64,000 nt of DNA from Agromyces sp. 3263 (GTDB lineage Bacteria > Actinomycetota > Actinomycetes > Actinomycetales > Microbacteriaceae): positions 806,001 to 870,000 of the forward strand of contig NZ_JAVDUV010000001.1 in NCBI RefSeq assembly GCF_031456545.1. Reading direction: 5' to 3'. A model generated the notes under the pieces. It searched no databases. It worked only from the letters and a program-made list of their open reading frames with translations, and was not told the DNA's origin. The position numbers and the translations under genes are program-made. Below are positions 3,400-28,231 of this stretch, piece by piece. Numbering within the stretch: the stretch's first letter is position 1; the number at the start of each line of letters is the position of its first letter.

Positions 3400-4284
3400 T
3401 CACCGCTCGGCGAAGTTGCCCTCACCGCAGGGCGGCAGGCTGCTCCAGCCCGGCGTCGCGGTCACGTACCGCCGGCAGATGTCGCCGCCCAGGTACACCG
3501 TGCCGTACTCGCCCTCGTCCTCTTCGAGTTCGATCGACGTGACGACGAACGGACCGTCGGGGCCCGAGACCGGCATTCGCCGCTCAGCACTCCCGTCCCA
3601 CACCGTCAGCTCGAGCTCGACTTCGCAGATCGACCCGGAGAAGTCGGGCACCAGGTCGACGACGAGCGGAACCTCCTCGTCGTGGGCGAGGGTGATCGTG
3701 CGTTCGGGGAAGTAGTTTTGCGGAGTGCCGCTGGGGTCGTACGCGTAGGCATCCGACGGCCCGTGCCCGACATCGACGTTCATGACCTCGGACGCGACTC
3801 CCGCCCCGCGGCCGGTCACCATCCGCACCAGCGTTCCCCTCGAGATGGGCTTGCACGTCTCCTTCGTCGTCACGTCGGTGACCCGCACTTCGCCGGTGCG
3901 GTTGCCCGTCAGGTACAGCGTGACCTGCTGCGCCCCGGAGACGCGGCCGTGCTCGTGCGCCTGGAGCCACCCGACCTGCGCATCGGCGTCGAGCCCCGCG
4001 AGCAGGTCGAGCTCGCTCGACGTGAGCGTGGCGCCCCGCGGAAGGACCACGTCGTCGGTACCCGCCTCGCCGTCGACCCTGACCTCGACGGGCTCGCCCT
4101 GCGAGTCGACCGCCACGGTCGCGAACCATCCGAACCCCTGCGTGACCGCGCCGGCGATGACGGTGGCGAGTGCGGCCGCGACCACACCGCCGATCCAGAC
4201 TCCAGCTCGGCGCCAGACCGGCCTCAGATCGGTGGTCGGGCCGGTCTCGTGCGGCTGCTCGCGCTCGCCCTGTTCTCCTGGCAT
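3400..4284 (-). CDS. Single-TM exported protein, unknown function
   Basis: A 294-residue protein with a short polar cytoplasmic N-terminus, one TM helix at about residues 28-49, and a 240-residue extracytoplasmic part. The latter contains two spaced Cys (TTKETCKPISRG and GSICEVELELTVWDG) and a Cys pair near the end (GGDICRRYV, SSLPPCGEG), suggesting disulfide bonds. Beta-rich composition. I recognise no family. It stands alone on this strand, followed by the inverted repeat at 3290-3351. Confidence 0.65.
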   Translation of the reverse strand: MPGEQGEREQPHETGPTTDLRPVWRRAGVWIGGVVAAALATVIAGAVTQGFGWFATVAVDSQGEPVEVRVDGEAGTDDVVLPRGATLTSSELDLLAGLDADAQVGWLQAHEHGRVSGAQQVTLYLTGNRTGEVRVTDVTTKETCKPISRGTLVRMVTGRGAGVASEVMNVDVGHGPSDAYAYDPSGTPQNYFPERTITLAHDEEVPLVVDLVPDFSGSICEVELELTVWDGSAERRMPVSGPDGPFVVTSIELEEDEGEYGTVYLGGDICRRYVTATPGWSSLPPCGEGNFAER

Positions 4285-4404
4285 GACTGCATCTCACGGG
4301 TCGCTTCAGATCCTAATCCTGAGCGTCGCTCGCGTTATCGGTGTCCGCCCTGATCCGCTCATCCGACCCTCGCGGCGCGTGGCCGAGGGGAGGATGCTGA
4401 ACCC

Positions 4405-4827
4405 ATGAATGACCGTGAGGATTTCCTGATCTGGGTGCACACCTCGCTCGCGGAGGCCGAACGAGCTCAGTTCGACGGCGACGACCGCCTGAGACGCGCG
4501 ATCTGGTCGAGTGAGGAGCCGGTGAGCGTGCTCGGGGCGTGGCGCAACGCGACGAGCCGTCACGAACTCGTGGAGGCGTTCGAGGTGCTCGCGTCGAGCT
4601 TCTCGGACTGCACCGCCTACTCGTTCGACTTGATCTCGTTCGACCTCCGCGGCGACATGGCGTACACCGTCGGCTACGAGCGCATCTCGGCGTCGATGGA
4701 CGGCACGCCGCGCACGTTCACCCTGCGCGCCACCCAGGTCTACCGTCGCGAGGGCGGGGAATGGCGGGTCGTGCACCGGCACGCCGACGCCCTCGGGTCG
4801 TCGACCTCGCCTCCGCCCGCTGCCTGA
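4405..4827 (+). CDS. SnoaL/DUF4440-like (NTF2-fold) protein
   Basis: A 140-residue protein with the NTF2-like pattern: N-terminal helices, then strands AYSFDLISFDLRGDMAYTVGYER, RTFTLRATQVYRREGGEWRVVHRHAD. This last motif (R.T.VYRR..G.WR..H.H.D) is the hallmark of SnoaL_3/DUF4440 proteins, which are small steroid-isomerase-like or ligand-binding domains. No catalytic assignment is possible. GGGAGG about 12 bases upstream of the ATG is a plausible ribosome-binding site. It stands alone between two minus-strand genes. Confidence 0.75.
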   Translation: MNDREDFLIWVHTSLAEAERAQFDGDDRLRRAIWSSEEPVSVLGAWRNATSRHELVEAFEVLASSFSDCTAYSFDLISFDLRGDMAYTVGYERISASMDGTPRTFTLRATQVYRREGGEWRVVHRHADALGSSTSPPPAA

Positions 4828-4926
4828 ATCCCGGAATGGACCCGCGCCGGCTCGCCCTCACCGCCGAGCGCGACCGCGTCATCGCCCGCACGGAGCTCTT
4901 CCGCGTGCCGAGCACCTAGCCGCGGG

Positions 4927-7900
4927 CTACCCGAGCGGCACGTACGGCAGCACGACGGGCGACCCGGCGCGCCAGTCGAGCACCGTCGACTGCGTCGCAC
5001 CGTCGGGCACGAGCACGTCGATCGTGTTCGGGTCGCGCGTGTCGGTGTCATGCGCGTCGTTGTCGCCGGTCCAGACACCGGCGCCGCCGCCGAAGCGGTA
5101 CTCCTTGATCCAGCTCATGCCGATGTCGGGGCTCGTGTTCCAGTAGTCGAAGTCGTAGACGGGTCGGATGCCGCCGGTGCCCTCGCCGTTGGGATCCGCG
5201 TGCGACATCAGGGCGACCTGGTACGTCGCGCCCGCGAGGTCCACCCCGTCGAACACGTCCTTCGGCACGGACATCGCGATCTGGTGCGTCGCCGGCAGCA
5301 CGAGCAGGGTGGCGTTGGCGAGCACCGCGTCGGTCGCGTCCCGCACGGCCGGCTGGATGAAGCCCGATCCGCCGACGACGAAGTCGTACGGGTGCGCGAG
5401 GGTCGCGTTCGTGCCCGGCCGCGCCGCGACGGCCGCGCCCGCGGCATCCGTGCTCACGTAGATGTCGACCCGCTGCACCGACATCTGGTTGCCGCCCCAG
5501 GGGTTGTTGATGTCGCCCGCGAGCGTCGTGACGAAGTTGATCGAGGTGCCGTCGTCGTAGACGCCGAGCTGCGTGAGGTCGAACGCGCCCGGGTTGAAGG
5601 CGCTGTTCGTGGGGTACACGTAGTCGCCGGGGCCGTGGTCGTCGCCCGACGGGTCGTCGACCGTGCCGACGGCCGTGCCGAAGTTCGTCGACGTGACCGC
5701 CACCTGCACGGCGGTCGTGCCGCCGTCGGCGCCCACCGCCACCACGGTGATGGTGTTGGCGCCGAGCACCACGGGCACCTCGGCGGTGAAGGCGCCCCCG
5801 GTGACCGATGCCTCGACGGCGTGCCCTCCGGCCGCGACCCAGACGGATGCCGCGTCGGTCGAGCCCGCGACCGTGACGCTCGATTCCGGGGTGACGGCGC
5901 CGGCGACCGGCTCCGTGACCGTGAGGCTCGGCCCGGCGGCAAGCGCGCCATCGGCGTACCGGTCGGCCACGACGGAGGGCGTCGAGATCGGCCGCCCCGC
6001 GTCGATCGACTGGGCGAGCCGCACGAATGCGGCCATCGACCAGGCCAGCGGCGTCGCCGAGCCGGTGCCCTCGCCGAACACGAAGCCCGCGGCATCCGGG
6101 CGGTCCCAGACCTGCTCGGGAATCATGTACCCGTCGTTCGCGGTCGCCGCGAGCGTGTCGAGGAACGTGTCGGCCGGACGGCCGTTCGCGAGCTCGTACT
6201 CGCCGCGCTCACCCGAGAGCAGCGGCCAGAGGCGGCCGACGCCGGTGCCGTCGTAGGGCGACCCGTCGGCCTTCTCGCCGTAGCCGTCGTGGTTGTAGCG
6301 GTACCAGAGCGCGCCATTGGGCGAGTCGACCTTGATCGTCGCATCGACCTCGGGTAGCGACTCGATGATCGCGGCATCCGCGGCCGGCTTCACGCCGAGG
6401 CGCACCAGGTCGAGGAAGCCGGCATCGACGATCGACCGCTCATCCCAGGCGCCGCCGCCGTTGTTGATGTCGAGGAAATGCCCGTCGTTCGGGTTGCCGT
6501 TGTCGTCGATGCGCTCGTAGTACTGCCCGTTGCCGAGCGGGCCGGTCGTGGTGAACGTCCAGTCCTGCACCTTGCGCTGCCAGTCGTCGGCGACGCCCGT
6601 GTAGACCGCGGCCGATGCCTCGTCACCGTTCGCCGCGGCGATCGACGCGGCGGCCGTGAGTCCGGCGACCTCAGCGGCGATGGTGCTGGGCGAATAGCCG
6701 CCTTCCTCCTCCCAGCGCTCCTGCGGGGTCGACGGGCCGTGGCCGACGAGGAAGTCGGCGGCGGTCTTCACGTGGTCGGCGTAGGTCGTGGCATCCGTGC
6801 GCCCGAGGCTCCACGCCAACACGATCGGGAACGCGACCTCGTCGAGCTGCAGGCCGCCCCAGTAGGGCGTGCCGTCGAGCAGCGAGTTCTGCGGGAACGA
6901 CCCGTCGCTCTTCTGCTGCACGTCGAAGAGGTAGTCGAGCGAGCGGTTCGCGGCATCCGAGTCGCCGAGGGCGATCTGCGCGGTCGCGACCTGGTAGAGG
7001 TCGCGCGCCCACACGAGGTGGTATCCGCCGACGCCGGCCTCGTTCGCGTTCTGCGCCTGGCCCCACGGAATCGTGAGCGAGGCGATGTTCGCGCCGCGGT
7101 AGGTCTTGTCCTCGTGCGCCTTCAGCGTCATCGCGGAGACCTGGTACTGGGTGGTGAGCGCCGCATCGCCCGCCACGCTCGCCGGCACCGCGCTGACGCT
7201 GTCGAGGTAGTCGTGCCAGCCCTCGGCGTACGCTTCGGCAGCAGCATCGGCGCCCTTGCCGGACTTGCCGAGGCTCGCATTGGCGACCGTGCGCGCGGCG
7301 TCGGCGGAGGCCCCGAACCCGAGCACGAGCGTCGCCGAGGCGTGCTTCGCCGGGCCGGTCAGCTTCAGCTCGGCGGTCTGCACGACGTTGCCGTCGAGCG
7401 CCTCCGCGTATCGGTGATCGAGGCGGTGATCGGTGGCGAGATCGGTCCAGCCGTCGCTGACGCCGGCGAACCCGTTGGAGGTCGCCACGAAGTCCTTGTC
7501 GGCCACCAAGGCGCTCGCGATGGGCTCGCCGCCGGTGCCCGGGTCGCCGGCGAGGTCCTCCGAGACGAGCGCGCCGCGCCAGAACCGGGCCGAGTCGTGC
7601 CGCCCGCTGTTCGCCAGCGACGGGTCGTACTGGGCGAAGACCCGATACTTGCCGCCGTCGAGTGAGCGTACCGAGACGTCGATGATCACGCTCGCGCGGG
7701 CGGGATCGGTGAACGTCGTCTTGACGATCTGGTACCGGCCGTCCTTGTCGGTGTTGGTCTGCGTGTACACGAGCGCCCGCGAGTCGGCGAGGCTCACCTC
7801 GTGGGTCGTGTCGCGCGACTCGAGGTCGGTGAACGTGGAGCCGTCGGTGACGATCAACTCGAGGCTGCGGCTGTTCGCCACGTCGACGCGCGGGTAGTAC

Positions 7901-8297: not shown

Positions 8298-11200
8298 TCA
8301 CGGAGCGACGCAGGACGTGAACCCGCTGGTAGCGCTGCTCAGGTAGGTTCCGCCGACCCCGAGCGTGCCCGACTGGCTCGAGTTCAGCGCGTTCACGTGC
8401 TGCTCCACGAGCGGGGTGCCGGCGGGCGAGGGCTGGAGCCCCTCGATGCCGAAGACGTTGACCGCCGGATCGGTCCCGGCCTTCGTGAGCATGATCCCGG
8501 GAGCGGTCGACCCGTTCGTCGTGCCTCCGGCGGTGACGTTTCCGGCGATCTCGAGGCACAGCGTCGCGTTCATGCCCGGCCCGCCGGAGATACCTCGGAT
8601 GCCGCTGAACGCGCCGCCGAGCGACGCCGGCACGGTGTTGTTCAGGATGCGGGCGGTCAGCGCACCCGAGGCCTCGGCGAAGGTCACGATCCCGCTTCCA
8701 CTCACTCCCGACACGACGTTGCCGCTGATGACGGCCGAGAGCGCCGGCCCTTCCTGCACGAGCGGCGTCCGGCTGCTGGCCCTGATACCGCTGCACCCCT
8801 GGCGGTTGCCGGCGTTGATGATGTTCTCCGACACGGTGGCCGTCGCCGTGGAGTTCTGCGACACCTCGAGGAGGATGGCTTCGCAGTCGATGTGCCGGAT
8901 CGGCTGTTGGGACGTGCCGTTCTTCGTGATCACGAAGTTGGCGTCGGCACCGAAGCCCGCGGCCGCACGGACGAACTGCTCCGGCTGCGCGCCGAGTCCT
9001 CCGTCGCCGCCGTTCATGAGGTTGCCGCTGACGGTGACCACGTCCGTCGCCGATCCGAGCGCGCCCATCGCCGGCACCGGGCCGCCCACCGCGTTGCCCG
9101 CGAGCACCTCGATGCCCACGCCGTGGGCGAAGCCGGTGAGGTCGTTGCCCGAGATCGTCGCCTTGGTGACCGTCGCCGCGGTGGTGGCGGTTCCCCCCGC
9201 GAAGAGCAGGATCCCGTCACCCGGCGTCGTCGTCGTCCCGTCGTCGGAGATGCGGTTGCGAGAGAGTTCCGCGTGGCTGATGGTGCCCGCCCGAGTGGTG
9301 AGGTCGATGCCGTTCTCGGCGGCGCCCGTGATGATGTTGTCGGTGATCGTCACGGCGCCGGTGACGCCGGCGGACCCGGTGAATCCGATGGCGCTCGAGC
9401 CGGCGAGGTCCGCGGCTCCCGCGCCCGAGATCGTGCCGTACGTGAAGGAGAAGCCGTCGACCTGGGATCCGATCACCCCGGTGAATCCGGGATCGACGAT
9501 CCGCATGTTGCGCAGCGACGGGTTCTTGGTGGCCATGAGGCTCACGGCGGTGGTCGCCGAGCCGCTGATCACGCCACCGGAACCGTCGCCGCCCTGGGTC
9601 GTGTTCCCGAGCCCGGTGATGCTGAAGGAACCGGCGGTGCCCGTGCCGTTCACCACGATGTTCCCGGAGCTTCCGATCGACACCCGCTGGAACGTGACGC
9701 CGGTCGCGGCGATGTCGGTGAACGCGAGGGTCACCGCGTAGCCGCTGGCGGTGTCGATCGTGTTGCCCGCGCCCGTCACGGCGATCGTGCCCGACGACGT
9801 CGCCGACAGGCCCGCCCCGTGCGTCGTGTCGATGTCGAGCCCGCCCCCGGTGATCGAGAGGGAGTGGCCGTCGGAGCTGCCGAAGACGACGGCATCGGCG
9901 GCGTTCGTTCCGATCCGCTTCGTCGCCCCCGCGAGCGTGGTCGCTCCGCCGGTGTTGTCCGTCACCCGCACGCCGCCGCCCTCGTCGGATCCGTCGGTGA
10001 TGGAGCCCGACAGCGTGACGGTGCCGCCGGTGCGATGCTCGACGGCCGCGCTGAGCGCACCGCTGCCGTCGGCGATCGTGCCGCCGTAGGTGATGTCCCC
10101 GCTGCCGCCGTCGACATCGACGGCCGTGCCGGCGGCGCCCGAGATCGTGCCGCTCGCCGCCGAGAACGTTCCGGCGCCGAGGCCGGTGAGGTCGATGCCC
10201 GCGCCGGAGCTGTTCGTCGACGAGACCTCGTCGAACGGCAGGGTGGCCGCCGTGCCGTTGACCACGACGGCTGGAGCGCCGGTCGCGCGGACCACACCCG
10301 AACCCGCGGCGGTGAGGGTCACCGTGCCGGCGTTGCTCAGCGAGAAGGCCGGCGTGAAGCCGTCGGTGGTGAGGGCGAGATCGCCGAAGGTGATCGCGCC
10401 CGTGGTGTTGGCGAGCGAGACGCCGCCGTAGGACGAGTCGACGGTCTCGACCCGGTCGATCTGGCTGGTGCCGAGCGCCGTGCCGGAGATGCGCAGCGCA
10501 GAGGCGGACCATGCGCTGATGCGGATGTCGGATGCCGGGTCGAACACGACGGTGCCCGCATTGACCAGCTCCACCCCCGCCTGCTTCGTGTTGACGGACA
10601 GGCCCGAGAAGGTGAATGTGCCGCTGGTGCCGATGAGCGAGACGGCGGCGTCACCGGACGCGGAGTAGACGATCTGCAGGTCGCGGAAGGTGCCGCCGAC
10701 GTCGCCGGCGCCACCGACGAGCGCGTTCCCGAAGCCGCCCACCGAGAGCTCGAGCCCGCCGACGGTGTCGCCCGAGCCGAGCCGCACGACGTCCTGGATG
10801 GAACCGGCGGTGATGACCGGCTTGATGCCGGCGCCCGTGTGCAGCGTGGCACCGCCGACGACGAGGCTCGCCGCCGAGCCGATGAGCTGCTGGTCGGCAT
10901 CGAGGTCGATGCCGGCGGCGTAGCCGGTGCTCGTGCCGTTCCCGCGGAACACGAAGATGCTCTGCCCGGCGCTGCTCGCGGCATCCGCTTGGGCGAGGGT
11001 GTCGAACGGGGCGGTGGAGGTGCCGTCGTTGCCTTCGGCGTTGTTGCTGACGTACCAGACGCAACCCGCGAGCGCGATGCTCACGCGCCCGGTGTCGGAG
11101 TCGTCGCCGTCGGTGACCTCGTAGTCGAAGAAGTCGGCGGCGTCGGTGCAGCTCGTGCCCGCGGCCGGGGTGTAGACGAAGTCGCCGTCGGCCTGGATGT

Positions 11201-12794
11201 CGACGCTGCCGCCGTCGTTCGTGGCGACGGTGCCGGCCACGAGCGAGAGCGCACCGTCGCCGCCGCCGTCGTTGGCGATCAGGTCGCCGGTGACCAGCTT
11301 GCGCGGACCCGAGGTCGTGGGCACGCCGTCAGTCGGCGAGTCCATCACGAACGTCGTGTTGCCGACCGCCGACTTCGCGGCGGCGAAGGTGTCGTCGCCG
11401 GCGACGGGCACGTCGTTGACGCACGCGACCGTGACCGCGACGGTCGCGGTGGCGCCGCCGGTGACGGTGTAGGCGAAGTCGTCGGTGGTGGTGCCCGGCG
11501 GATCGTTGCAGACGTTCGGGTCGGGCTGGTACGTGAGGCCGGTGTGGGCGCCGGGGCTGCCGCCGGTGAGCACCACGGTGCCGCCCGCGGGGTCGCTCGC
11601 CGACACGATGGCGAGCAGGCCGCCGTCGGGGTCGTCATCGTTGGCGAGCACGTCGAGTGCCGTGGCGCCTGCGTCCTCCTCGACGGTGAACGCGTCGTCG
11701 CTCGCGGTCGCCAGGTCGTCGACGCAGGTCACGGTGACGGCGACCGTCGCGGTCGATCCGCCCGGTGCAAGCGTGTAGGTGAAGTCGTCGGTCATGGTGC
11801 CAGGCGGGTCGTTGCACACATCCGGGTCGGGCGCATAGGTGACGGATGCCGCGTCGCCGGCGATCACCGCGGTGCCATGGTCGGGCTGCGTGATCGAGTC
11901 GATCGCGATGGGTCCGCCGTCGGCGTTGTCGTCGTTGGCGAGCACGTCGATCGTGCTGGCAACGGCGTCCTCGGCGATGGTCGCGCGGTCGTCGACGGCG
12001 GTGGGCGGCACGTCCTCGACGACGTCGGTGACCTGGATCGTGAAGGCCTCCTCGACGGCGCCTCCGTACCCGTCGCTCCCCCGGAGCCTGATCGAGTAGG
12101 AGCTCTTCGCCTCGTAGTCGAACGCCGCAGTCGTCGTGAGCGTGCTGCCCGCGATCGAGAAGCTCGAGTTGTCGTCGGCGCCGGCGCCGGCGACCAGCGC
12201 GAACGTCGGCGTGCTCGCCGGATCGCCATCCGTGAGACTCAAGGTGCCGACCGTCGTGCCGGCCGGCTCGTTCTCGAGCACGGCGGCGTTCGACAGCGCG
12301 AGGTCGCTGGGCGCGTGGTTCACGATGACGTACGCCGTCTCGGTGGCGGCGCACAGTCCGGGCCCGCTCACGCGTCGCAGCACCCCGGAGCTCGGCGCGC
12401 AGAGGTACACGGGCGTCGAGGTCGGCACCGTGATGATGGTGCCCGGCGGCTTGGTGCCGGTGCACGCCTTCGCGGAGCTCAGGCGGCGCACCGAACCGTC
12501 GGGCTGCACGCACAGCTGCGTCGGCCCGGGCCAGATCGCCACGGCCGTCTCCTGCTTCGGCCGGCAGTCCGACGAGCTCGTCGCGACCCGCAGCAGTCCG
12601 TTCGACTTCTGCGCGCACGCGAACGTGAGCTGCGCCTCGGTCGTCGACGCGACGGCCACGGATGGCGCGGCCACCCCGACGACCAGCGCGAGGATCGCGG
12701 CGAAGACCAGTGCGGGTCGCGCTCGGCCGGGGACCCGGCGGCGCCGCCCCCGCTCGGCGCTGGCGTTCGAGGCATGGGCGGGCGCGACCGACAT
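8298..12794 (-). CDS. Giant secreted protein: Cys repeats, cadherin/Ig-like domains, beta-helix
   Basis: A 1498-residue exported protein. After a signal peptide (about 1-50, ending SVAVAS) come three degenerate 35-residue Cys repeats of the form C-(x)-GLLRV..-C (about 55-160). A cadherin-like domain follows (LENEPAGTTVGTLSLTDGDP), then tandem Ig/cadherin-like repeats each containing VLANDD and CNDPPGT (about 260-560). About 900 residues of Gly/Thr/Ser-rich parallel beta-helix repeats (right-handed beta-helix/pectate-lyase-like) make up the rest. It looks like an adhesin or a polysaccharide-binding surface protein; no LPXTG anchor or catalytic triad is visible. It is followed on the same strand, after about 107 bases, by the GH15 glucosidase. 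Confidence 0.85.
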   Translation of the reverse strand: MSVAPAHASNASAERGRRRRVPGRARPALVFAAILALVVGVAAPSVAVASTTEAQLTFACAQKSNGLLRVATSSSDCRPKQETAVAIWPGPTQLCVQPDGSVRRLSSAKACTGTKPPGTIITVPTSTPVYLCAPSSGVLRRVSGPGLCAATETAYVIVNHAPSDLALSNAAVLENEPAGTTVGTLSLTDGDPASTPTFALVAGAGADDNSSFSIAGSTLTTTAAFDYEAKSSYSIRLRGSDGYGGAVEEAFTIQVTDVVEDVPPTAVDDRATIAEDAVASTIDVLANDDNADGGPIAIDSITQPDHGTAVIAGDAASVTYAPDPDVCNDPPGTMTDDFTYTLAPGGSTATVAVTVTCVDDLATASDDAFTVEEDAGATALDVLANDDDPDGGLLAIVSASDPAGGTVVLTGGSPGAHTGLTYQPDPNVCNDPPGTTTDDFAYTVTGGATATVAVTVACVNDVPVAGDDTFAAAKSAVGNTTFVMDSPTDGVPTTSGPRKLVTGDLIANDGGGDGALSLVAGTVATNDGGSVDIQADGDFVYTPAAGTSCTDAADFFDYEVTDGDDSDTGRVSIALAGCVWYVSNNAEGNDGTSTAPFDTLAQADAASSAGQSIFVFRGNGTSTGYAAGIDLDADQQLIGSAASLVVGGATLHTGAGIKPVITAGSIQDVVRLGSGDTVGGLELSVGGFGNALVGGAGDVGGTFRDLQIVYSASGDAAVSLIGTSGTFTFSGLSVNTKQAGVELVNAGTVVFDPASDIRISAWSASALRISGTALGTSQIDRVETVDSSYGGVSLANTTGAITFGDLALTTDGFTPAFSLSNAGTVTLTAAGSGVVRATGAPAVVVNGTAATLPFDEVSSTNSSGAGIDLTGLGAGTFSAASGTISGAAGTAVDVDGGSGDITYGGTIADGSGALSAAVEHRTGGTVTLSGSITDGSDEGGGVRVTDNTGGATTLAGATKRIGTNAADAVVFGSSDGHSLSITGGGLDIDTTHGAGLSATSSGTIAVTGAGNTIDTASGYAVTLAFTDIAATGVTFQRVSIGSSGNIVVNGTGTAGSFSITGLGNTTQGGDGSGGVISGSATTAVSLMATKNPSLRNMRIVDPGFTGVIGSQVDGFSFTYGTISGAGAADLAGSSAIGFTGSAGVTGAVTITDNIITGAAENGIDLTTRAGTISHAELSRNRISDDGTTTTPGDGILLFAGGTATTAATVTKATISGNDLTGFAHGVGIEVLAGNAVGGPVPAMGALGSATDVVTVSGNLMNGGDGGLGAQPEQFVRAAAGFGADANFVITKNGTSQQPIRHIDCEAILLEVSQNSTATATVSENIINAGNRQGCSGIRASSRTPLVQEGPALSAVISGNVVSGVSGSGIVTFAEASGALTARILNNTVPASLGGAFSGIRGISGGPGMNATLCLEIAGNVTAGGTTNGSTAPGIMLTKAGTDPAVNVFGIEGLQPSPAGTPLVEQHVNALNSSQSGTLGVGGTYLSSATSGFTSCVAP

Positions 12795-13000: not shown

Positions 13001-15589
13001 TTACGCCGCGGCAGGCACCTCCACGGTCGCGCGCGGCACCGGCACGACGACGAACTCGCCGTCCGCGGCATCCACCGTCACGCCCTCGCCGTCGCCCAGC
13101 GCACCCGACACGAACAGGTCGCTGATGCGGTCGTCGATCTCGCGCTGGATCACGCGACGCAGCGGGCGAGCACCGTACTCGGGCTCGTAGCCGCGCTCCG
13201 CGAGGAGCGCCACCGCGGCATCCGTCACCTCGAAGGCGACCTCGCGCGCGGCGAGCCGCTTCGAGGTCGCGCCGAGCATGAGCCTGACGATCTGCGCGAG
13301 CTCCGCCTCGCCGAGCTTCTGGAACAGCACGATCTCGTCGATGCGGTTCAGGAACTCGGGCCGCATGGCCTCGCGCACCTTGCCCATGACCCGCTGGCGC
13401 ACGTCGTCCTGCGACGCGAAACCAGAGCCATCAGCGGATGCCACGAAGCCGAGCGCACCCGACCGCGACGCGAGGAACTCCGAACCGAGGTTCGAGGTCA
13501 TGATGACCACCGTGTTGCGGAAGTCGACCGTGCGACCCTGGCCGTCGGTCAGGCGTCCGTCGTCGAGCACCTGCAGCAGCAGGTTGAACACGTCGGGGTG
13601 CGCCTTCTCGATCTCGTCGAACAGCACGATCGAGTACGGGTTGCGCCGCACGCGCTCGGTGAGCTGCCCGGCCTCGTCGTAGCCGACGTATCCGGGAGGG
13701 GCGCCGACGAGCCGCGACACGGTGTGCCGCTCGCCGAACTCGCTCATGTCGAAGCGGATCACGGCGGTCTCGTCGTCGAACAGGCTCGCCGCGAGCGACT
13801 TGGCCAGCTCGGTCTTGCCGACACCCGTCGGGCCGAGGAACAGGAACGACCCCACGGGCCGACGCGCGTCGCCCATGCCGGTGCGGCTGCGGCGCACGGC
13901 CTTGGCGACCGCGGTGACCGCGTCGTCCTGGCCGATGACGCGCGAGTGCAGCTCGCCCTCGAGGTCGCCCAGGCGCTCGCGCTCGGACTCGGTGAGGCGG
14001 TTCACCGGAATTCCGGTGGCCCGCGAGATCACCGCGGCGATCTCGGCCTCGTCGATCACGGCCTCACGCTGCTGAGCGGATGCCGCGGCGCGGCCGGCTG
14101 CGGTCACCTCGTCGAGCTTCGCCTGCACCTTCGAGATCTCGTCGCGAATCCGCGACGCCTCCTCGTAGTGCTCGGCGCCGACGGCGGCGTTCTTGTCGGC
14201 CTCGAGGTCGGCGAGCCGCGCGATGAGCGCGGAGACATCCGTCTTCACGCCGAGCCGCAGGCGCAGCCGCGCCCCGGCCTGGTCGATGAGGTCGATGGCC
14301 TTGTCGGGAAGCACCCGGTCGGTGAGGTAGCGCGCACTGAGCTCGACGGCGGCGCGCAGCGCGGCATCCGTGTACTCGATGCCGTGGTGCTCCTCGTAGG
14401 CGGGCTTCAGCCCGTGCAGGATGAGCACGGCGTCCTCGATCGAGGGCTCGCCGACGCGCACCGGCTGGAACCGGCGCTCGAGGGCGGGGTCCTTCTCGAT
14501 GGTGCGGTACTCCTTGAGCGTGGTCGCACCCACGAGGTGCAGCTCACCGCGCGCGAGGCGCGGCTTCAGGATGTTGCCCGCGTCCATGCCGTCGCCACCG
14601 CCGCTGCCGCCGGCGCCCACGACCGTGTGCACCTCGTCGATGAACACGATGAAGTCGCCCTTGTGCTCGGCGATCTCGTCGATGGTCTTGGTGAGGCGCT
14701 CCTCGAAGTCGCCGCGGTAGCGGGTGCCCGCGAGCATCGCGGGCAGGTCGAGCGACACGACGCGCTTGCCGAGCAACTGCTCGGGCACGTTCTCCTCGAC
14801 GATCGCGCGGGCGAGGCCCTCGACGATCGCGGTCTTGCCCACGCCGGCCTCGCCGACCAGCACCGGGTTGTTCTTGGTGCGGCGGCTGAGGATCTCGATG
14901 GCCTGCTCGATCTCGTCGACGCGTCCGATCACGGGGTCGAGCTCGCCGTTCTCGGCGAGGGCCGTGAGGTCGGTGCCGAACTTGTCGAGCATCGGGGTGG
15001 CGGATGCCGCGGCGCCCGCGCTGCTCGCGTCGCCCTCGCCCTCTGCGCCCTCAGCGCCCGGGGTGACCGTCTCGCGGATCTGCTGCGTGAGCGCCTCGGC
15101 GGTGACGCCGGCGCGCGCGAGCACCTGCCCGGCGGGGGCATCCTGGCCGAGCACGAGCGCGAAGAAGAGGTGCTCGGGGTCGATGTAGGTCGAGCCGGCC
15201 GAGCGCGCGACCTGGTAGGCGTGGAACAGCGCGCGGCTCGCGCTGGGGGTGATCGTGGCCGCGTTGATGTCGGCCGTCTCACCCGCGGCGGGCAGGCGCG
15301 CCTCGGTCGCGGTGATGATGCGCTCGGGTGCGACGCCGATGCGCTGGATGGCCTGCGTGACCGCCTCGTCCTCGACGATGACGCGCAGGATGTGCAGGGC
15401 GTCGAGCTCGGTCTGGCCGCGCTCGAGCGCGAAGCGTCCTGCCTGCTGCAGGATGCCTTGCGTGCGGGCGGTCAGGAACCGGCTGAGGTCGATCGACCGA
15501 GCCTGACGCGCCTGCTCTCCCGCAAGGTACCGGCTGAGGAACTCGTCGAACGAGCTCGCGCCGGCTTCGGGGTTGAAGTCTTCGGGCAC
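13001..15589 (-). CDS. clpC: ClpC-type AAA+ unfoldase (ClpP partner)
   Basis: About 862 residues: double Clp-N repeat (about 35-175), AAA+ domain 1 with Walker A GEAGVGKT (247-254), a short middle domain with UVR-like [10 protein letters not shown] instead of the long ClpB coiled coil, and AAA+ domain 2 with GPTGVGKT. After MTSNLGSEF comes GALGF, the LGF-type loop that docks ClpP, so this is a protease partner rather than a ClpB disaggregase. GTG at 15589 is preferred: AGGAGG ends four bases before it, while the adjacent TTG is too close. The promoter region carries an HspR-type operator, so heat-shock control is likely. It may be a second, stress-dedicated ClpC copy. Confidence 0.88.
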
Positions 15590-15601
15590 CAATCCTCCTG
15601 G

Positions 15602-15628
15602 GAACTTGAGTTGGGTACGCTCAAGTTC
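15602..15628 (-). promoter_or_regulatory. HAIR operator (HspR binding site)
   Basis: GAACTTGAG-N9-CTCAAGTTC is a perfect 9-bp inverted repeat. It matches the HspR-associated inverted repeat CTTGAGT-N7-ACTCAAG with a single mismatch (GCTCAAG). It lies immediately upstream of the clpC-type gene's ribosome-binding site, consistent with HspR repression as known for clpB/dnaK in Streptomyces and mycobacteria. Confidence 0.8.
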
Positions 15629-15753
15629 AACGCGGAGGGGGCGCGGGTATTCCCGGCAACTGACGAAGGAATATACACTCCGTCAGAGCCGTCGCACGCC
15701 ACGCAATCGGCGTGGATCGCATACTCGTCGGTGTGCAAGCACGTTCGCACCTC

Positions 15754-16893
15754 TCACGACTTACCGCGGGGCCGATCCATCTCGCCCTTATTTGATGCAG
15801 TGCTCTCCGGTCGCGTTACTGTCCCCTCCGATGCGGATGCCTTGTCGCCTGAGGGGCCGTCTTGCGTAGCCGCAGTTTCCTCACTACGAGTTTGCGGTCG
15901 CTTGATCTCGAGTTCCCTTCGCTTTGACCACCTCAAGTAGTCGGTACCAGCTTGCGTCAGCGACCAGTACTCGTTCTGGTCGCTGACGGAATGACGCAAG
16001 CTAGAAGGGGCAACAAGGTCAAGAGCCATAAGCTCCACAAGCACCTCCTTCACGACATTGAGCGGCGTGATCGTGGATGATCGCGATTGATCGCTCTTCA
16101 GGTGAATGGCCAGGAGTTCGGACGCTTTGCGCAACGGGTACTCGGGGATGAGCGACGGGCCCAACGTCTCGAATATCCAACGCAGGCTGACCGAGGGAGC
16201 ATCCGTCTCCCACTCGGTTGAATCAAAGTATCGGTAGGAGACATCGTGCGTGCGCCCGGAAAGTACCGCCCGGAGTTGTTGCATCGCCTTGGTCTGATCC
16301 GCATCTACTTCGTGGTTGAGCGCCTCGATCTCGCGCCTGAGTCTGGCGTTCTCCGCGCTCAAACGCGACAGTTCGGATGTAACTTCGGGGCCGATCGAAG
16401 ACGACGAGCGAACCCAACCCTCTCGTGGCGTCGCAGTGAACGCCTTCATTAGGGCGACCACAGCCTTCGAATGAAGATCCTCCGCAGACTTCCAGTATCC
16501 AACCGGTCGTTGGCCTACCAGCCCCCTGAACTCATCAAGTAGCAAGCGCACTTCTTTGTCACCATCAATGCGATCGGCAGGCCAACTTGCGCTGGGGTCA
16601 ATAAGGAAACCGAGGGCTGGCACGCCGGATGCAACTGCGTATTCATACTCTTTGCGCGTATAGCTGATCCCGTCGACGACCGATCCATAGCGATGGGCGA
16701 CTATCACGAGGTAGTAATCGCTCTCATCGATGTGGCGTTGAATTATCTGCCACTGCTGTTCATCTGCAGCGCTGAACATCTCCATGCCGACGGGTATGTG
16801 ACCCATCTCCAGGATGGCTTTGATGACGGCATCCCGTTCCTCGACGAGATCTTCGTACGTTGAGCTCACAAAGATCTGAAATTTGGTTGCCAA
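15754..16893 (-). CDS. DUF4062 (TIR-like) domain protein with coiled coil
   Basis: A 379-residue protein. Residues 5-95 form a DUF4062 domain (FQIFVSSTYEDL, then VGMEMFSAADEQQW, YYLVIVAHRYGS, YTRKEYEYA), a TIR/nucleoside-deoxyribosyltransferase-like fold often linked to STAND or defence proteins. Residues 105-165 give the usual family extension, 170-205 a coiled coil (SRLSAENARLRREIEALN), and the C-terminus a winged-helix-like segment ending LTQAGTDYLRW. Start is TTG at 16893 with AGGAG eight bases upstream; the family motif begins five residues later, and the in-frame ATGs farther upstream have no ribosome-binding site. Base use is AT-richer than neighbours. Role in phage defence or NAD/nucleotide signalling is inference. 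Confidence 0.82.
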   Translation of the reverse strand: MATKFQIFVSSTYEDLVEERDAVIKAILEMGHIPVGMEMFSAADEQQWQIIQRHIDESDYYLVIVAHRYGSVVDGISYTRKEYEYAVASGVPALGFLIDPSASWPADRIDGDKEVRLLLDEFRGLVGQRPVGYWKSAEDLHSKAVVALMKAFTATPREGWVRSSSSIGPEVTSELSRLSAENARLRREIEALNHEVDADQTKAMQQLRAVLSGRTHDVSYRYFDSTEWETDAPSVSLRWIFETLGPSLIPEYPLRKASELLAIHLKSDQSRSSTITPLNVVKEVLVELMALDLVAPSSLRHSVSDQNEYWSLTQAGTDYLRWSKRRELEIKRPQTRSEETAATQDGPSGDKASASEGTVTRPESTASNKGEMDRPRGKS

Positions 16894-17193
16894 CGCTGTT
16901 TCTCCTTCGGTCACGACACAACGCGAGCTACCTCTAGTTCGCAATCGGCTTCGAGTGTACGGTCGTTGTCGCATGCACTTAGGTCTCGAGTCAGCGTTGC
17001 CTCCGGCATTCCGGCCGCCCACTAGGGCTAGGACTACACGCATGTAGGGGGAGCGCCGGCCGTAGTCATGTCTCACCTCAGGTCAGCTCGCCGTTGCGAC
17101 ACGGCATCCTCATCGAGGCACCTCACACCGCAACCACACCCGTGGCGTATTTCGTGCGACGACGCGAGAAGCATCGAGATATAGACTCCGCAC
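16894..17193. other. 300-bp divergent intergenic region of the island
   Basis: No gene is supported here. It separates the divergent DUF4062 and methyltransferase-like genes and holds the palindrome CTACACGCATGTAG (17034-17047; 5-bp arms, 4-base loop), a possible operator, plus the rightward promoter at its end. Confidence 0.5.
17182..17187 (+). promoter_or_regulatory. Leaderless -10 hexamer TAGACT
   Basis: TAGACT followed by six bases and GTG at 17194; no Shine-Dalgarno precedes the gene, so a leaderless transcript is predicted. Confidence 0.45.
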
Positions 17194-17799
17194 GTGCCTT
17201 TCCCACAGTCTTTCGATGACTCTGGGCTCCCTGATCCGGCTGACCGGGGGACGCCGTGGGTAAGCGACACACCCGCTTACGTCATGTGGTGCGAGCGCAT
17301 GGCCGGTCTCGACTTCATGGATCGGCTCGCCATCGTCGAGCATCGCGGCCTAATCGACGCCTACGGGGAGAACGCCATGAGCCGTGACGCGCTGCAGCGG
17401 ATCGCAGCGTACGGGCCGTTGTGGGAACTCGGCGCCGGCGGCGGCTACACCGCTCGACTTCTAAAGGATCTCGGAGCAGAGGTGGTCGCCTCGGATCCGA
17501 AGCCGCCCGTGATCCCATGGACGGAGGTCAGATGGGGCACGTACGAAACGGATGACGTAGGAGACAGCATCCCTCTCCTAGTCTGGCCCTACATGAACGC
17601 GGCTCTCCCATGGCTTCGATCCGAGCGCGCCCCGCACCGCCTAATCGTCGTCAATGATGTCGCACCGAATGCAGTCGGGGCTCACGGCATAATCGGCTAC
17701 CTGTCCGAGGCATGGACGCATATCGAGACCTTCCCCGCTGGTTCGGGATGGCGCAGGTGGGCCGACTATGTCCACGTTTGGGATCGGCCGAACCGATAG
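17194..17799 (+). CDS. SAM-methyltransferase-like protein of the island
   Basis: A 201-residue protein with a class I methyltransferase motif I, LWELGAGGGYTARLL (about residues 76-90), followed by VVASDPKPP with the acidic residue that would bind the SAM ribose. Later strands (HRLIVVNDVAP, WRRWADYVHVW) fit the fold, but no catalytic motif for DNA, RNA or protein methylation (such as DPPY or NPPY) is visible. Target therefore unknown, and it may be a degenerate relative. GTG start supported by the leaderless promoter geometry. It is convergent with the large nuclease-like gene and divergent from the DUF4062 gene. Confidence 0.65.
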   Translation: MPFPQSFDDSGLPDPADRGTPWVSDTPAYVMWCERMAGLDFMDRLAIVEHRGLIDAYGENAMSRDALQRIAAYGPLWELGAGGGYTARLLKDLGAEVVASDPKPPVIPWTEVRWGTYETDDVGDSIPLLVWPYMNAALPWLRSERAPHRLIVVNDVAPNAVGAHGIIGYLSEAWTHIETFPAGSGWRRWADYVHVWDRPNR

Positions 17800-17875
17800 C
17801 TACGCCGAGTGTGCCTCCGGCCGGCCACCTCCCCGTCGGTTTGATGGCGCAGGTTCGTTAACACTTGACGTTGGG

Positions 17876-20242
17876 TTACAGGTTCTCTTCGAACCGAACA
17901 CGGACTTCGGGTCTCACACGTATGGACTTATCAATCGCGGCCCGAGCCGATGGCGGCCATGCTCCTGCGGTGGCGAAGAGAACTTCATCGGCCTGGAGTA
18001 TCTCGGCAGCATCAAGGCGCTTCTTGACCGCTGTGCGGAGGGCGGCGCCGGAGCCCATGTTGCCACTTGATTTCACTTCGCCGACCGTTACTTGGCCATT
18101 GACGAATGCGATCAGGTCAATCTCGTACATCGGCTTTCCATCCGCATCAGTGAATACCACCTCGGATGTGGTGAGCGCGGCGTCCGTAGCGCCGCCCACA
18201 CGGGCCGCTGCTCTCAGCACTTCCATTCCGTGTTCGTCCACTAGGCCGCGAAACGCCTTGTGCAGGTCATAGTGCCACACTGGTTCATCCATCGGGCGTC
18301 GCCACTGCGCGCCGATGAAGTCGTTGCGCGCACCGCAGTGACTGCATTCATAGACCTGGGCTAGGTCGTCGATACTCACAAATGACGGAGACCCACATTC
18401 CTCGCAACCGAGTACAAGCCCGCGCCGAAGGAGCCTAGCCCGCAGGAGCTCGTCAAGCAGGGCTCGAATGGGAGCGTCGCTGATAGACCCGAGCACTCGG
18501 CGGAATGCAGCAAACGTTAAGTAGGGCGACAATCCCAGCAGGACACCATCACCGCACGGGAACGCGTCGCTGCTCTTCTTCGGAGAGGCGGCAGACCGGA
18601 ACTCGCTGAACGCCGCTTGCTGCCCGCCAGCAGCGAGCTCGACCAGCCTTACTCGGCCCCCCAGTCGGCGGGCCACCAACTCGGAGTACTGCCCAGCCTT
18701 GGAGTACGTTGCGTTGAGATTATGACGTCTCGCCATCGCCTGCACCCATGAGTAGAGGCCGAGTTGACGGAGGTGTGGGCGCGCAAGACGGGAATGGAGC
18801 ACGCTATTGCCCGCGACGAAACCAAAGCTCGCTGCTCGGAAGGTAATCCCGTCGCGAGCATTGCGAAGCAGGGTTGCCGTGGCCAAGTTCTCGCTGGCGA
18901 CGATCTCTGCCGCGGGAAGTTGCCGTCCTGGTGGCATGGAACGGGGAGAGATTTGCACGTCCACCACCCAAGCGGGCTGGCCATTCTGATCCAGGGGAAG
19001 CCCGGACTCCGGGCCTGGTGGAAGTGGAGCTTCAAATGGGGCGGCGAGTCGGACGGTGCCGTCTGGCGACTCGAACACGGGCACCACGTACGAGGCACCG
19101 ACTCCGTCGGCGATGGCCAACGTCGAAAGGCCGCTGCCGAATTCCGGGAGTGCCTTTGATACGCCAAGCGACGATGAACCGCTTGTCACCTCCACGTCGT
19201 TGATCAACAATTGACCGCGGATCGTCATGCTGTTCAGAGCATCCTGAGCGTCGGCGGGCGTTTTGCTAACGGTAGTGACATGGACGTCTGAGGCATCGAA
19301 ACCGAGAACCCCATGCAGGTGGAGCTTTAGACGAGGTGCCGCGTCCATTACCGAAGTTGCGTCATTCGATAGCCAGATGGCGAAGCCGAGAATTCGATCG
19401 AGTGCAAGGGCAAGCGCGAAGTCCTCAGCCGTGTCGCCGAGCACTAGGACACGCTTGACCGGGTTCCATCCGGTGCTGATTCGTGTAAGCGTCGGTGACG
19501 CAGCCTCAAACCACGTGTCCGCGCGGATCTCACTGGTTGACTCACGGCTGTGCTGCCAGATGAGCGGCTCTGGCGCCTCCCCCGCCGACGGGTCAAGCAA
19601 CCAGTCGAGCAGATCTTCATCAGCGGGCGCTGGCCGAGTGGGTTCAGAATGCGGTGGGCTGCCTGTCTTTGCGAGCGCCCAGAGAGCGACGTCGCCATCC
19701 CATTCAGTCGTGGCTCCAACGACGCTTCGAGTTCCTATGACCGAGTTCTCGTCGACGCGATGGTGCCAATCTCCTCCGTTTGAACCCCCCACCGAAATAC
19801 GCAGCGGGTGGGGGGTTAGGCGCGAGTGCGCAAGCGGCGTGACCACCGCGGCGAGCGATTCGGTGGCCTTCTTTGCCCAAGCGTCGGCGACTGGCTCATC
19901 TGCCGCAGCGGCGAGCCGAGCCTCCCACGCACAAGGGTCTTCATCGGGGCGAGGACCAACCACATCCGGCGAGAGCCGATGCCACGTCGCAACATCATGT
20001 ATCAGGATCGCTAGCTCATCCGGGTCATAGGTCCGCACAGTGTTGATGATGGTGGGGTGGACAACTCCATCCTCGCCGTACGGCACAAGGATGTATCCGC
20101 CGCCACCCCATCGAACGCTGACCGCCTCGAGCGCGAGCCGTGCCCATGCCTGCCAACTTGTCCCTCCGTAGAAGAGGACAGCGACTCTCGGTGGCCTCAG
20201 GATTGTGGTCGCCGTTCGGTACGCCAGCGACTCCTCAGGCAT
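17876..20242 (-). CDS. Large zinc-ribbon PD-(D/E)XK nuclease-like protein
   Basis: A 788-residue protein not assignable to a named family. N-terminus: Rossmann-like strand VAVLFYGGTSWQAWARLAL, then a second nucleotide-fold-like strand RVLVLGDTAEDFALALALDRILG in the middle. C-terminus: a four-Cys zinc ribbon (C613, C616, C633, C636) and a restriction-endonuclease-like core with Asp709 (YEIDLIAF) and Glu722-x-Lys724 (GEVKSSG), the D-x(12)-ExK pattern of PD-(D/E)XK enzymes. ATG at 20242 chosen for GGAGAGG just upstream. I infer a sensor-plus-nuclease architecture as in many anti-phage proteins; DNA or RNA cleavage is unproven. Base composition is AT-richer than the chromosome around it. Confidence 0.75.
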   Translation of the reverse strand: MPEESLAYRTATTILRPPRVAVLFYGGTSWQAWARLALEAVSVRWGGGGYILVPYGEDGVVHPTIINTVRTYDPDELAILIHDVATWHRLSPDVVGPRPDEDPCAWEARLAAAADEPVADAWAKKATESLAAVVTPLAHSRLTPHPLRISVGGSNGGDWHHRVDENSVIGTRSVVGATTEWDGDVALWALAKTGSPPHSEPTRPAPADEDLLDWLLDPSAGEAPEPLIWQHSRESTSEIRADTWFEAASPTLTRISTGWNPVKRVLVLGDTAEDFALALALDRILGFAIWLSNDATSVMDAAPRLKLHLHGVLGFDASDVHVTTVSKTPADAQDALNSMTIRGQLLINDVEVTSGSSSLGVSKALPEFGSGLSTLAIADGVGASYVVPVFESPDGTVRLAAPFEAPLPPGPESGLPLDQNGQPAWVVDVQISPRSMPPGRQLPAAEIVASENLATATLLRNARDGITFRAASFGFVAGNSVLHSRLARPHLRQLGLYSWVQAMARRHNLNATYSKAGQYSELVARRLGGRVRLVELAAGGQQAAFSEFRSAASPKKSSDAFPCGDGVLLGLSPYLTFAAFRRVLGSISDAPIRALLDELLRARLLRRGLVLGCEECGSPSFVSIDDLAQVYECSHCGARNDFIGAQWRRPMDEPVWHYDLHKAFRGLVDEHGMEVLRAAARVGGATDAALTTSEVVFTDADGKPMYEIDLIAFVNGQVTVGEVKSSGNMGSGAALRTAVKKRLDAAEILQADEVLFATAGAWPPSARAAIDKSIRVRPEVRVRFEENL

Positions 20243-20526
20243 GTCCTCTCCATCCTGCTCAATACAACCAAGTGCCGAAATCATCCCATCCGCAAACCGC
20301 GCATGGTGGCCAGCACGCCCGCGACCAAGTCCGCGGGAGGAAGCCAACGAGCTCACCCATGCTTGGAGCGGCCGCAAGTGAGTGCTCGAATTCCATTTCG
20401 ACAGATTCCCGAATTCGCGAGTCGCAAGAAACGCGCGCGGCGTGTTGGGACAGCTCTAAGGCGCCGCGATCATCTCCTCGACGGGTATCAATGGACGGCC
20501 GCGAGGCCCTACCCCGAACCGTCCGA
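20243..20526. other. Gene-free right border of the island
   Basis: No supportable gene. The stretch is AT-richer on its left, contains CGAATTC twice about 25 bases apart (near 20387 and 20413), and returns to high GC toward the padR operator. No attachment-site repeat matching the left border (15640-15750) was seen. Confidence 0.4.
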
Positions 20527-20549
20527 ACGATATATCGTTGACATATCGT
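20527..20549 (+). promoter_or_regulatory. Palindromic operator of the padR gene
   Basis: ACGATAT-N9-ATATCGT, perfect 7-bp arms, 38 bases upstream of the padR start; its spacer contains TTGAC, so it probably overlaps the promoter. Autoregulation by PadR proteins is common. Confidence 0.6.
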
Positions 20550-20586
20550 CGAGACCCGATCAGGGCCCCGGTTCAGGGAGGTCATC

Positions 20587-21165
20587 ATGAGCGATTCGTA
20601 CATGGGCAGCGGCTTCGGCGGCTCCTCGAGCGGCTGGGGCAAGGGCAGCAACCCCGGCCCGAACCTGTGGGAGGCCATGGAGCAGCTCCGCGGCATGTTC
20701 GAGCAGAAGGTCGCGCCGCGCATGGGCAAGGGCGACGTGCGCGCGGCGGTGCTCGCACTGCTCGCCGAGAAGCCGATGCATGGCTACCAGATCATCAGCG
20801 AGATCGCCGAGCGCAGCGGCGGCGCGTGGAAGCCGAGCGCGGGCTCGGTGTATCCGACGCTGCAGCTGCTCGCCGACGAGGGGCTGATCAGCGCCGAGGA
20901 GTCGAACGGACGCAAGACGTACACGCTGACCGAGTTGGGACGGGCCGAGGTCGCGGCATCCGGCGACCGCCCGGCGCCCTGGCCGACCGCAGGCAGCGGC
21001 CGCAGCCACGACACCGGGGCCGGCTCGCTCGGGAAGGCCGGCTTCGAGCTCGCCCAGGCGGCGGCGCAGGTCGGACGCACTGGCACGCCTGAGCAGGTCA
21101 AGGAGGCGGTGGACGTGCTCGATGAGGCACGTCGTCGCCTGTACTCGATCCTCGCCAAGGACTGA
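20587..21165 (+). CDS. PadR-family transcriptional regulator
   Basis: A 192-residue PadR repressor. A Gly/Ser-rich N-terminus precedes the winged helix at about residues 48-125 (DVRAAVLALLAEKPMHGYQII, then PSAGSVYPTLQLLADEGLI and YTLTELGR), all diagnostic of PadR. A C-terminal helical part (EQVKEAVDVLDEARRRLYSIL) should dimerise. GGGAGG seven bases before the ATG. The palindrome at 20527-20549 is the likely operator. It lies 5 bases from the AarF kinase gene, so both are probably co-transcribed and self-repressed. Confidence 0.93.
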   Translation: MSDSYMGSGFGGSSSGWGKGSNPGPNLWEAMEQLRGMFEQKVAPRMGKGDVRAAVLALLAEKPMHGYQIISEIAERSGGAWKPSAGSVYPTLQLLADEGLISAEESNGRKTYTLTELGRAEVAASGDRPAPWPTAGSGRSHDTGAGSLGKAGFELAQAAAQVGRTGTPEQVKEAVDVLDEARRRLYSILAKD

Positions 21166-26812: not shown

Positions 26813-26881
26813 GCCGCAGACTCTACGGCTCGATCAGTCGCGTCGCGGCATCCGCGGGGCTGCCCAGATGCACGCGCGGGC

Positions 26882-28081
26882 TCAGGCGCGCCCCTTGAGG
26901 ATCATGTGCCAGTACACCCAGGGCAGGATGTGCCGGTCGAAGAGCCACGAGAGGCGTCGCTCGCGAGACAGCGACTTCCAGAACGGGATGGTGGGCTTCA
27001 GCCGGTACTGGTCGTCGAATTCGGCGAAGACGACCGTGGAGCGTGAGACCGTGAACGGGCAGACGGTGTAGCCGTCGTAGCGGGTCGTGGGTTCCTTGCC
27101 GTCGAGCACCGCCAGCACGTTCTCGGCGAGAACCTTGGTCTGCTTGCGCAGCGCGCCACCCGACTTGGAATTGCGGGTCGCCGCGGCGTCGCCAAGCGCC
27201 CAGACGTTGTCGTAGCGCACGTGGCGGAGCGTCTCGGGGTCGACTTCGACGAACCCGCCCGAATCGCCGGCCGCCGGGAGACTCGTCGACTTCAGCCAGT
27301 CGGGAGCCGATTGGGGCGGCACGGCATTCAGCACGTCGTACGGCAGGCGCTCGCTCGCTCCGCCGCCGCCGACGGGGCCGATCTCGGCCGTGCGGTTCGC
27401 GCCGTCGACCGAGCGCAGCTCGGTTCCGGTTCGAAGCTCGATGCCGTACTCGGCGATCTTCCGCTCGAGCTCGCGGTCGATCTCGGGGATGCCGAACACG
27501 GTCGGGTCGGGCACGATCATCACGACACGGATGTCGCTGAGCACGCCGGTCGCGCGCCAGTAGTCGCATGCGAGGTACATGGGCTTCTGCGACGCACCGG
27601 CGCACTTCGCCGGCCCCGGCGGCTGCGTGAAGACGGCGGTTCCCCGGCGCAGGTCGCGGAGGAGCCGAGACGCCTTGGGCACCAGCTCGAATTCGTAGTG
27701 CGATGCGACCGACGGCGTGCCCAGCGCGGCCGTGAGACCGGGCACACGGTCCCAGTCCAGCTGCATCCCCGGACAGACGATCAGCTGGTCGTAGGTGACC
27801 CGACGACCTGACGCGAGGACGACGCTGGCGTCGTCGGGGTCGAGATCCACGACGGCCTCCTGGATCCACCCGACGCCCTTCGGCATGACGGAAGCCTGCG
27901 GCCGCACCGTCATGCTGGCGCGAGCGACGCCACCGGCCGCGTGCGAGAACAACGGCTGGAAGCGATGCTGGTCACGTGGTTCGATCACCACCACGTCGTC
28001 GACGCCGTGCCGATGGAGTCGCCCGGCGACCGAGAGTCCGGCGTTGCCTCCGCCGATGATCACGATGCGGTGGTGGGTCAT
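26882..28081 (-). CDS. Sulfide:quinone oxidoreductase-type flavoprotein (SQR type II-like)
   Basis: A 399-residue FAD-dependent oxidoreductase. N-terminal dinucleotide fold VIIGGGNAGLSVAG (residues 6-19), second FAD motif VWALGDAAATRNSKSGGA. The redox Cys pair of SQRs is present: KCAGASQKPMYLACDYWR and YTVCPFTVSRS, closest to the mitochondrial-type SQR, and the C-terminal amphipathic helix (ILPWVYWHMILKGRA) suits membrane-surface quinone reduction. Reaction expected: sulfide to sulfane sulfur with quinone reduction. GGAGG six bases before ATG fixes the start. No persulfide dioxygenase or rhodanese is nearby. A plain NADH dehydrogenase II is less likely given the Cys. Confidence 0.85.
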   Translation of the reverse strand: MTHHRIVIIGGGNAGLSVAGRLHRHGVDDVVVIEPRDQHRFQPLFSHAAGGVARASMTVRPQASVMPKGVGWIQEAVVDLDPDDASVVLASGRRVTYDQLIVCPGMQLDWDRVPGLTAALGTPSVASHYEFELVPKASRLLRDLRRGTAVFTQPPGPAKCAGASQKPMYLACDYWRATGVLSDIRVVMIVPDPTVFGIPEIDRELERKIAEYGIELRTGTELRSVDGANRTAEIGPVGGGGASERLPYDVLNAVPPQSAPDWLKSTSLPAAGDSGGFVEVDPETLRHVRYDNVWALGDAAATRNSKSGGALRKQTKVLAENVLAVLDGKEPTTRYDGYTVCPFTVSRSTVVFAEFDDQYRLKPTIPFWKSLSRERRLSWLFDRHILPWVYWHMILKGRA

Positions 28082-28231
28082 GGGGCGCCTCCTTGCAACG
28101 TCGATGGGCAGCCGGAATCCGAACCTATGCGCCGCCCTGCGGCGAAGCGACCCGCTTGACTCGGCGGGCGCCGAGTGCATGGCGAGGTCCTCCCCGATGG
28201 ACAACCCAGTCGCAGCGCCATCCGACGCTCG

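Follow-up and report, generated by a model that had tools for sequence, protein, structure and literature searches.

Defence hotspots between conserved core genes have fixed core flanks and changing cargo, and PD-(D/E)XK effector nucleases with a separate sensor domain are known among CARF-nuclease proteins such as Card1 and among Mrr-type restriction enzymes. Here, we analyze a window of 64,000 nucleotides from Agromyces sp. 3263 (positions 806,001 to 870,000 of contig NZ_JAVDUV010000001.1; "the window" means this whole stretch), whose source genome is 4.07 Mb and high in guanine plus cytosine (GC). In it, a 4,852-bp insert of low GC (15657–20508) lies between a clp gene (13001–15592, minus strand) and a padR gene (20587–21165, plus strand), and carries gene A (15754–16893, minus), gene B (17194–17799, plus) and gene C (17876–20242, minus). 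The names clp and padR, like leuS and comEA below, come from reading the translations and from the labels of a first-pass annotation of the sequence, rather than from a family search. That annotation had proposed the three genes as a candidate defence island of an undescribed kind. We consider it likely that the locus is a chromosomal defence hotspot with exchangeable cargo, which here holds independent genes: a Swarozyc-type gene (A), a separate one-gene nuclease defence (C) and a passenger (B).

Swarozyc, with KpSwz as its type member, was described in May 2026 as a bioRxiv preprint (PMC13174449; PDB 10wc, 11cq, 11cv). The excerpts of the preprint on which we draw present DUF4062 as a TIR-like NADase and the protein as held in inactive assemblies at rest. 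They further describe how the winged-helix AUX domain of KpSwz recognizes the phage portal, through a hairpin tipped by W238 and Y239; E97 is required, and a high phage dose leads to loss of NAD+ and collapse of the culture (PMC13174449).

The clp–padR slot carries different cargo in related genomes

The insert stands apart from the rest of the window in composition, with a GC of 0.607 versus 0.688–0.739 in 495 slices of equal size taken elsewhere, in line with the earlier description of three AT-richer genes between clp and padR. Its ends are set by comparison. In one member of the genus (G029), clp and padR are 99% and 98% identical to the window copies at the protein level, and the DNA flanks are ~97% identical; this identity reaches base 15656 and resumes at base 20509, while the insert is not shared at all. 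The resulting break points, 15657 and 20508, fall within 20 bp of the limits first drawn for the island (15640–20526). More broadly, padR was detected in 55 of 60 genomes in a search of the genus (counts from genome searches, here and below, include the present genome), and the padR-adjacent region was retrieved from 53 other genomes of the genus (54 loci). The same clp gene lies 2.9–13.2 kb from padR in 18 of these 53. In each of the 18, the GC of the interval (0.585–0.688) is below that of the rest of its own locus (0.675–0.723), and the contents differ; one genome (G048) holds a different DUF4062 gene in the slot. Same flanks and different cargo in related genomes, the pattern that defines a hotspot, are thus seen in 18 genomes. 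Together with the deviant composition, this bears out the suggestion that the region was acquired by transfer. A further sign of transfer had been seen in the absence of the word GGATGCC over about 3.4 kb, and this stands in part. The word has 96 sites in the window (mean gap 659), and its longest gap, 3,852 bp from 17103 to 20955, does fall here; it is present at 15835, 16828 and 17103, towards the left of the insert, so that it is missing from the right part only.

Like other hotspots between core genes, the clp–padR slot combines fixed flanks with changing cargo, and it differs in that its edges coincide with two flanking promoter blocks, described below. Library scans revealed no recombinase among genes A, B and C. 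Most likely, the cargo would be swapped by homologous recombination in the conserved clp and padR flanks. In full-text literature searches, judged from their listings, we found no description of a clp–padR slot or of a clp-linked defence slot.

To what extent is the cargo defensive? At E ≤ 1e-5, 66 AT-rich cargo open reading frames (ORFs) from the 18 intervals match 235 PADLOC models, a figure inflated by overlapping ATPase models, and 66 flank ORFs match 27. The control here is flank ORFs rather than other islands, the cargo set is longer than the flank set (23,026 versus 18,767 aa), and all ORFs come from a GC-based picker, so that some may not be genes. By coordinates, a defence-type gene lies inside the slot in 6 of the 18 genomes: Ppl in G029, the DUF4062 gene in G048, HamA in G059, GmrSD_N in G006, OLD in G015, and a weak OLD-like match in G044. 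HamA occurs in one genome of the 18, inside the slot. The Pfam tally of the 66 cargo ORFs includes D12 methyltransferase, ORC-CDC6-like and T5orf172, with one member each. A defence setting, as anticipated in the first-pass annotation, is what we find, both here and in the neighbours of gene C.

Several points count against the hotspot reading. In 35 of the 53 genomes, which include short contigs and all of the more diverged padR copies, clp is not within reach of padR. GmrSD is found in 8 of the 18 genomes and in the slot of one only, and Old-model matches are found in 16 of the 18 and in the slot of two; neither family is therefore confined to the slot. The roles of all three genes of the insert are also predictions. 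On balance, the hotspot with exchangeable cargo remains the reading that we favor, and it gives the clp–padR slot a practical use, as a fixed address between two core promoters at which further defence genes of the genus can be collected.

G029 has two padR copies (L081:13715–14293 and L082:4205–4783), 98–99% identical to the window copy and ~9.5 kb apart. Next to one of them is DNA matching window positions 26866–28180.

The three genes do not travel together

That genes A, B and C sit next to one another within one pair of flanks, all with low GC, would be expected of a single multi-gene system, with A as the killer of the cell, C as a DNA-cutting enzyme, and B as a protein that marks or senses DNA. 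Yet at an E of 1e-6 we find A or B in none of 16 gene C loci, and B or C in none of 10 gene A loci. In family searches, A and C coincide in the present genome only (gene A threshold 1e-15), and the three genes stand on alternating strands. A single system is thus highly improbable, and we reject it on co-occurrence. With it goes the proposal of an undescribed system made up of all three genes, the DUF4062 gene being related to the described Swarozyc (PMC13174449). That the three meet in this slot is accidental. The first-pass annotation had cautioned that joint action of all three was not a given, and this caution was well placed. It had also named three observations that would speak against a defence island, namely homologues that are rarely adjacent, a lack of defence neighbours, and a composition like that of the chromosome. 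The first is what the searches returned; the other two are not.

Gene C as a candidate one-gene nuclease defence

Gene C is the novel part of the insert. It encodes 788 aa, which comparison with sequence relatives divides into an N-terminal part followed by a zinc ribbon and then a predicted PD-(D/E)XK domain. In 19 aligned gene C-type sequences (22–34% identity to C), the residues of the Cys4 ribbon (C613, C616, C633 and C636; 18335–18406, minus strand) and of the PD-(D/E)XK core (E694, E707, D709, E722 and K724; 18071–18163, minus strand) are invariant. Nuclease-type acidic residues and E-x-K are present in order (E694, D709, E722, K724). The ribbon and the core had both been read from the 788-residue protein at the outset, and the alignment upholds them. 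The protein otherwise gives no convincing match to any library family, Pfam included; its first 570 residues match nothing known, and against the PADLOC models it hits zero families at E up to 1.

Gene C has actinobacterial relatives, few and scattered. The homologue search found six, and the genome-contig scan found ten loci, including one contig-end fragment. Three distant relatives reside in plasmids, and a profile scan yielded one in a viral contig; phage records gave no match, nor did a single-sequence scan of viral contigs. Searching with the 19-member profile brought at least one additional weak match (P0011) among 8000 candidates scored. In genomes, gene C is found in 4 of 100 of the genus (the present one, G006 and, as weak partial matches, G021 and G044), in 7 of 398 of the family (G124 and G273 being fragments), and in 3 of 296 in a further search (G565 and G613 being partial). 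In G006, the relative is solitary between genes read as leuS and comEA, with a GC of 0.61 versus 0.74 around it.

The surroundings of these relatives bear on function. We scanned 20 hand-picked ORFs from ten gene C loci against PADLOC (L038, L039, L063, L064, L080 and L140 were left out), and in 6 of the 10 a match lies beside gene C: Avs2 and a UG22 reverse transcriptase in L031, a weak Mrr-type match in L033, GmrSD/NsnA in L034, a PDC-S28 helicase with an HNH effector in L035, a PifA-like match in L040, and a weak REase_II match in L079. The solitary and patchy occurrence of gene C in such places matches the look of a one-gene defence. In this reading, the ~570-residue N-terminal part would sense a trigger, and the zinc ribbon and PD-(D/E)XK nuclease would then cut nucleic acid, a mechanism that we infer from the residues. 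Should the C-terminal core indeed be a nuclease under control of the N-terminal part, the protein would work like Card1 and Mrr-type effectors. It differs from them in having no PADLOC or Pfam match, and in its ~570-residue N-terminal part and a ribbon that directly precedes the core.

Three points tell against this reading. The profile of gene C reaches no significant match to solved structures (E 0.013 for a zinc ribbon and 0.56 for a UPF0102 chain). The neighbours scanned were chosen by hand, without a matched control. Finally, 4 of the 10 scanned loci (L032, L036, L037 and L078) have no PADLOC match.

It is also conceivable that gene C encodes a factor of mobile elements or of replication or repair, for instance in plasmids or phages, with a nuclease domain that serves DNA processing. 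On actinobacterial plasmids, one relative is near several transposases and another is beside a Mu-type transposase gene, which leaves room for such a role. In viral contig L140 (IMGVR_UViG_3300031456_000025), the relative (3670–6285) lies reversed within a tailed-phage structural cluster, between the head-tail connector and head-tail adaptor genes. Nevertheless, a factor of this kind sits poorly with the patchy distribution in the family (the seven genomes include the present one and two fragments), with a solitary copy between housekeeping genes, with adjoining defence genes in 6 of the 10 scanned loci, and with the lack of any single constant neighbour among the gene C loci read. We regard it as somewhat unlikely, and gene C is probably a separate one-gene nuclease defence. 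A bolder form of this conclusion is that gene C is the founder of a new family of one-gene anti-phage defences in Actinomycetota, in which a long N-terminal sensor gates a zinc-ribbon/PD-(D/E)XK nuclease. Such a gene would spread on its own, entering chromosomal slots, plasmids and even a phage structural cluster, from which it could counter rival phages. To this we give an even chance. In either form, the conclusion makes gene C a specific candidate for a one-gene defence of a new kind.

Gene A resembles the Swarozyc NADases

Gene A (379 aa) has a TTG start at 16893, chosen from the sequence. It matches Pfam DUF4062 at E 1.4e-29 across all 82 model positions. In a phmmer comparison with KpSwz (PDB 10wc), it aligns at E 4e-42 over ~301 of its 379 residues with chain residues 4–308 of 326, a span that, by sequence, takes in the stalk and the winged-helix AUX tail with its portal-binding hairpin. 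The DUF4062 domain, coiled coil and winged-helix-like tail recognized in the first reading are thus all accounted for. The predicted catalytic Glu (16648–16650, minus strand) occupies the place of KpSwz E97, where the E97A construct has its Ala, and is invariant in 11 of 11 aligned gene A-type proteins from this taxonomic order. At the hairpin tip, a Tyr-Phe pair (16225–16230, minus strand) aligns with W238-Y239; the offset of 13 in KpSwz numbering was derived here and agrees with W238/Y239. On this alignment, gene A is a homologue of KpSwz and hence no longer undescribed.

Gene A has in common with Swarozyc the TIR-like DUF4062 domain, the stalk, the winged-helix AUX domain, the Glu at the E97 place and an aromatic pair at the hairpin tip. 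It differs in being actinobacterial and far diverged, with Tyr-Phe for Trp-Tyr, AH for GG and a charged tail of its own. Some of these differences weigh against a working, portal-sensing protein. Near the active site, gene A has AH for the GG and R for the E of its relatives, at nearly invariant positions, and the family alignment shows variation in the hairpin region. Such features would be consistent with a DUF4062 protein that has lost its function, or that responds to a trigger other than the portal. We think this unlikely, since the catalytic Glu, FVSST at the domain start and the winged-helix YWxLT motif are kept, and the frame is open. We take gene A for a relative of Swarozyc with the mode of action of KpSwz, namely one-gene abortive infection: the TIR-like DUF4062 NADase would be kept inactive, and binding of a phage portal to its winged-helix domain would switch it on, whereupon it would destroy NAD+ and the infected cell would die. 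If so, Swarozyc-like NADases extend to Microbacteriaceae, and the 11 aligned proteins offer natural variants with differing hairpin regions.

In the genus, gene A has matches in 23 of 100 genomes. Only G082 and G048, besides the present genome, have it at near full length; the remaining matches cover chiefly the first 120 residues, in frames of ~410–1630 aa. The present genome has four more DUF4062 domains (L066 and L065; C1 at ~1545–1551 kb and 705 kb), in frames of ~960–1480 aa. Three of the four are in tandem, their GC is of the ordinary high level, and they belong to a different DUF4062 class that is also frequent in the genus. In three loci with gene A relatives (L059, L071 and L072), we read the neighbours by eye as SLATT, P-loop/STAND, SIR2-like and a second DUF4062-like gene.

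Gene B as a methyltransferase-like orphan

The product of gene B (201 aa from a GTG start) has a GAGGG motif of the type that binds S-adenosylmethionine (SAM) and, in place of the WPPY of a halovirus relative, WPYM. It has only sub-threshold matches in Pfam, which fits the initial description of a SAM-methyltransferase-like protein without a catalytic target motif. Among 422 candidates there are two relatives. The protein also matches phage family phrog_19090 (3.9e-8) and proteins of two haloviruses (phiH PhiH1_425 and HGTV-1 gene 67; E ~1e-4), of which that of phiH is near two DNA methylase genes. As in the halovirus WPPY-type methyltransferase-like proteins, the SAM-type motif is followed by a WP-Y motif; the two differ in WPYM itself, and their similarity is weak (E 1e-4). 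Genome searches found gene B in 1 of 100 genomes of the genus and in 4 of 398 of the family, three of these weak and partial. None of 46 pattern matches in viral contigs was confirmed, and there was none in plasmids. Gene B is methyltransferase-like and lacks the usual catalytic motif, and it is probably a passenger.

The slot edges coincide with promoter blocks

On its left, the slot ends at the −35 element of a clp promoter of SigH-like type, and the right edge is the block preceding padR. The clp promoter block (15597–15656, minus strand), whose outer end is the left edge, consists of GGAAT-N17-GTT and then a HAIR-like CTTGAG..CTCAAG. The clp-side alignments end within six bases of each other in 15 of the 18 genomes and earlier in three, and the conserved block terminates in GGGAATA, read on the clp strand. 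GGAAT-N17/18-GTT is present in 19 of 19 genomes, the present one included (spacing 17 in 18 of them and 18 in one), while the entire window has three matches to this pattern on both strands; the HAIR-like element comes next in 18 of 19. An excerpt of PMC10012870 gives the SigH promoter consensus as gGGAAta / cGTTgaa with a spacing of 18–19; the clp block is similar in sequence, with a spacing of 17–18. On the other side, the padR upstream block (20509–20586, plus strand) contains ATATCGT repeats and is likely an operator, and alignments of the fetched loci restart at 20509–20528. As the slot lies between two outward-pointing promoters, insertion there harms neither gene.

A site-specific target at the left edge was also considered. 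We dropped this idea, as the edge coincides with the clp promoter −35 element in 19 of 19 genomes, and selection on the promoter is a simpler explanation of its sharpness.

In G019 (L087:3985–4042), a second clp promoter block of 58 bp, which has lost its GTT element, lies within the slot and divides two cargo groups; it may mark an earlier edge left by a later insertion. Adjoining clp in the window is an open frame of 1498 aa (8298–12794, minus strand) with repeat-like sequence, which by eye is perhaps a surface protein.

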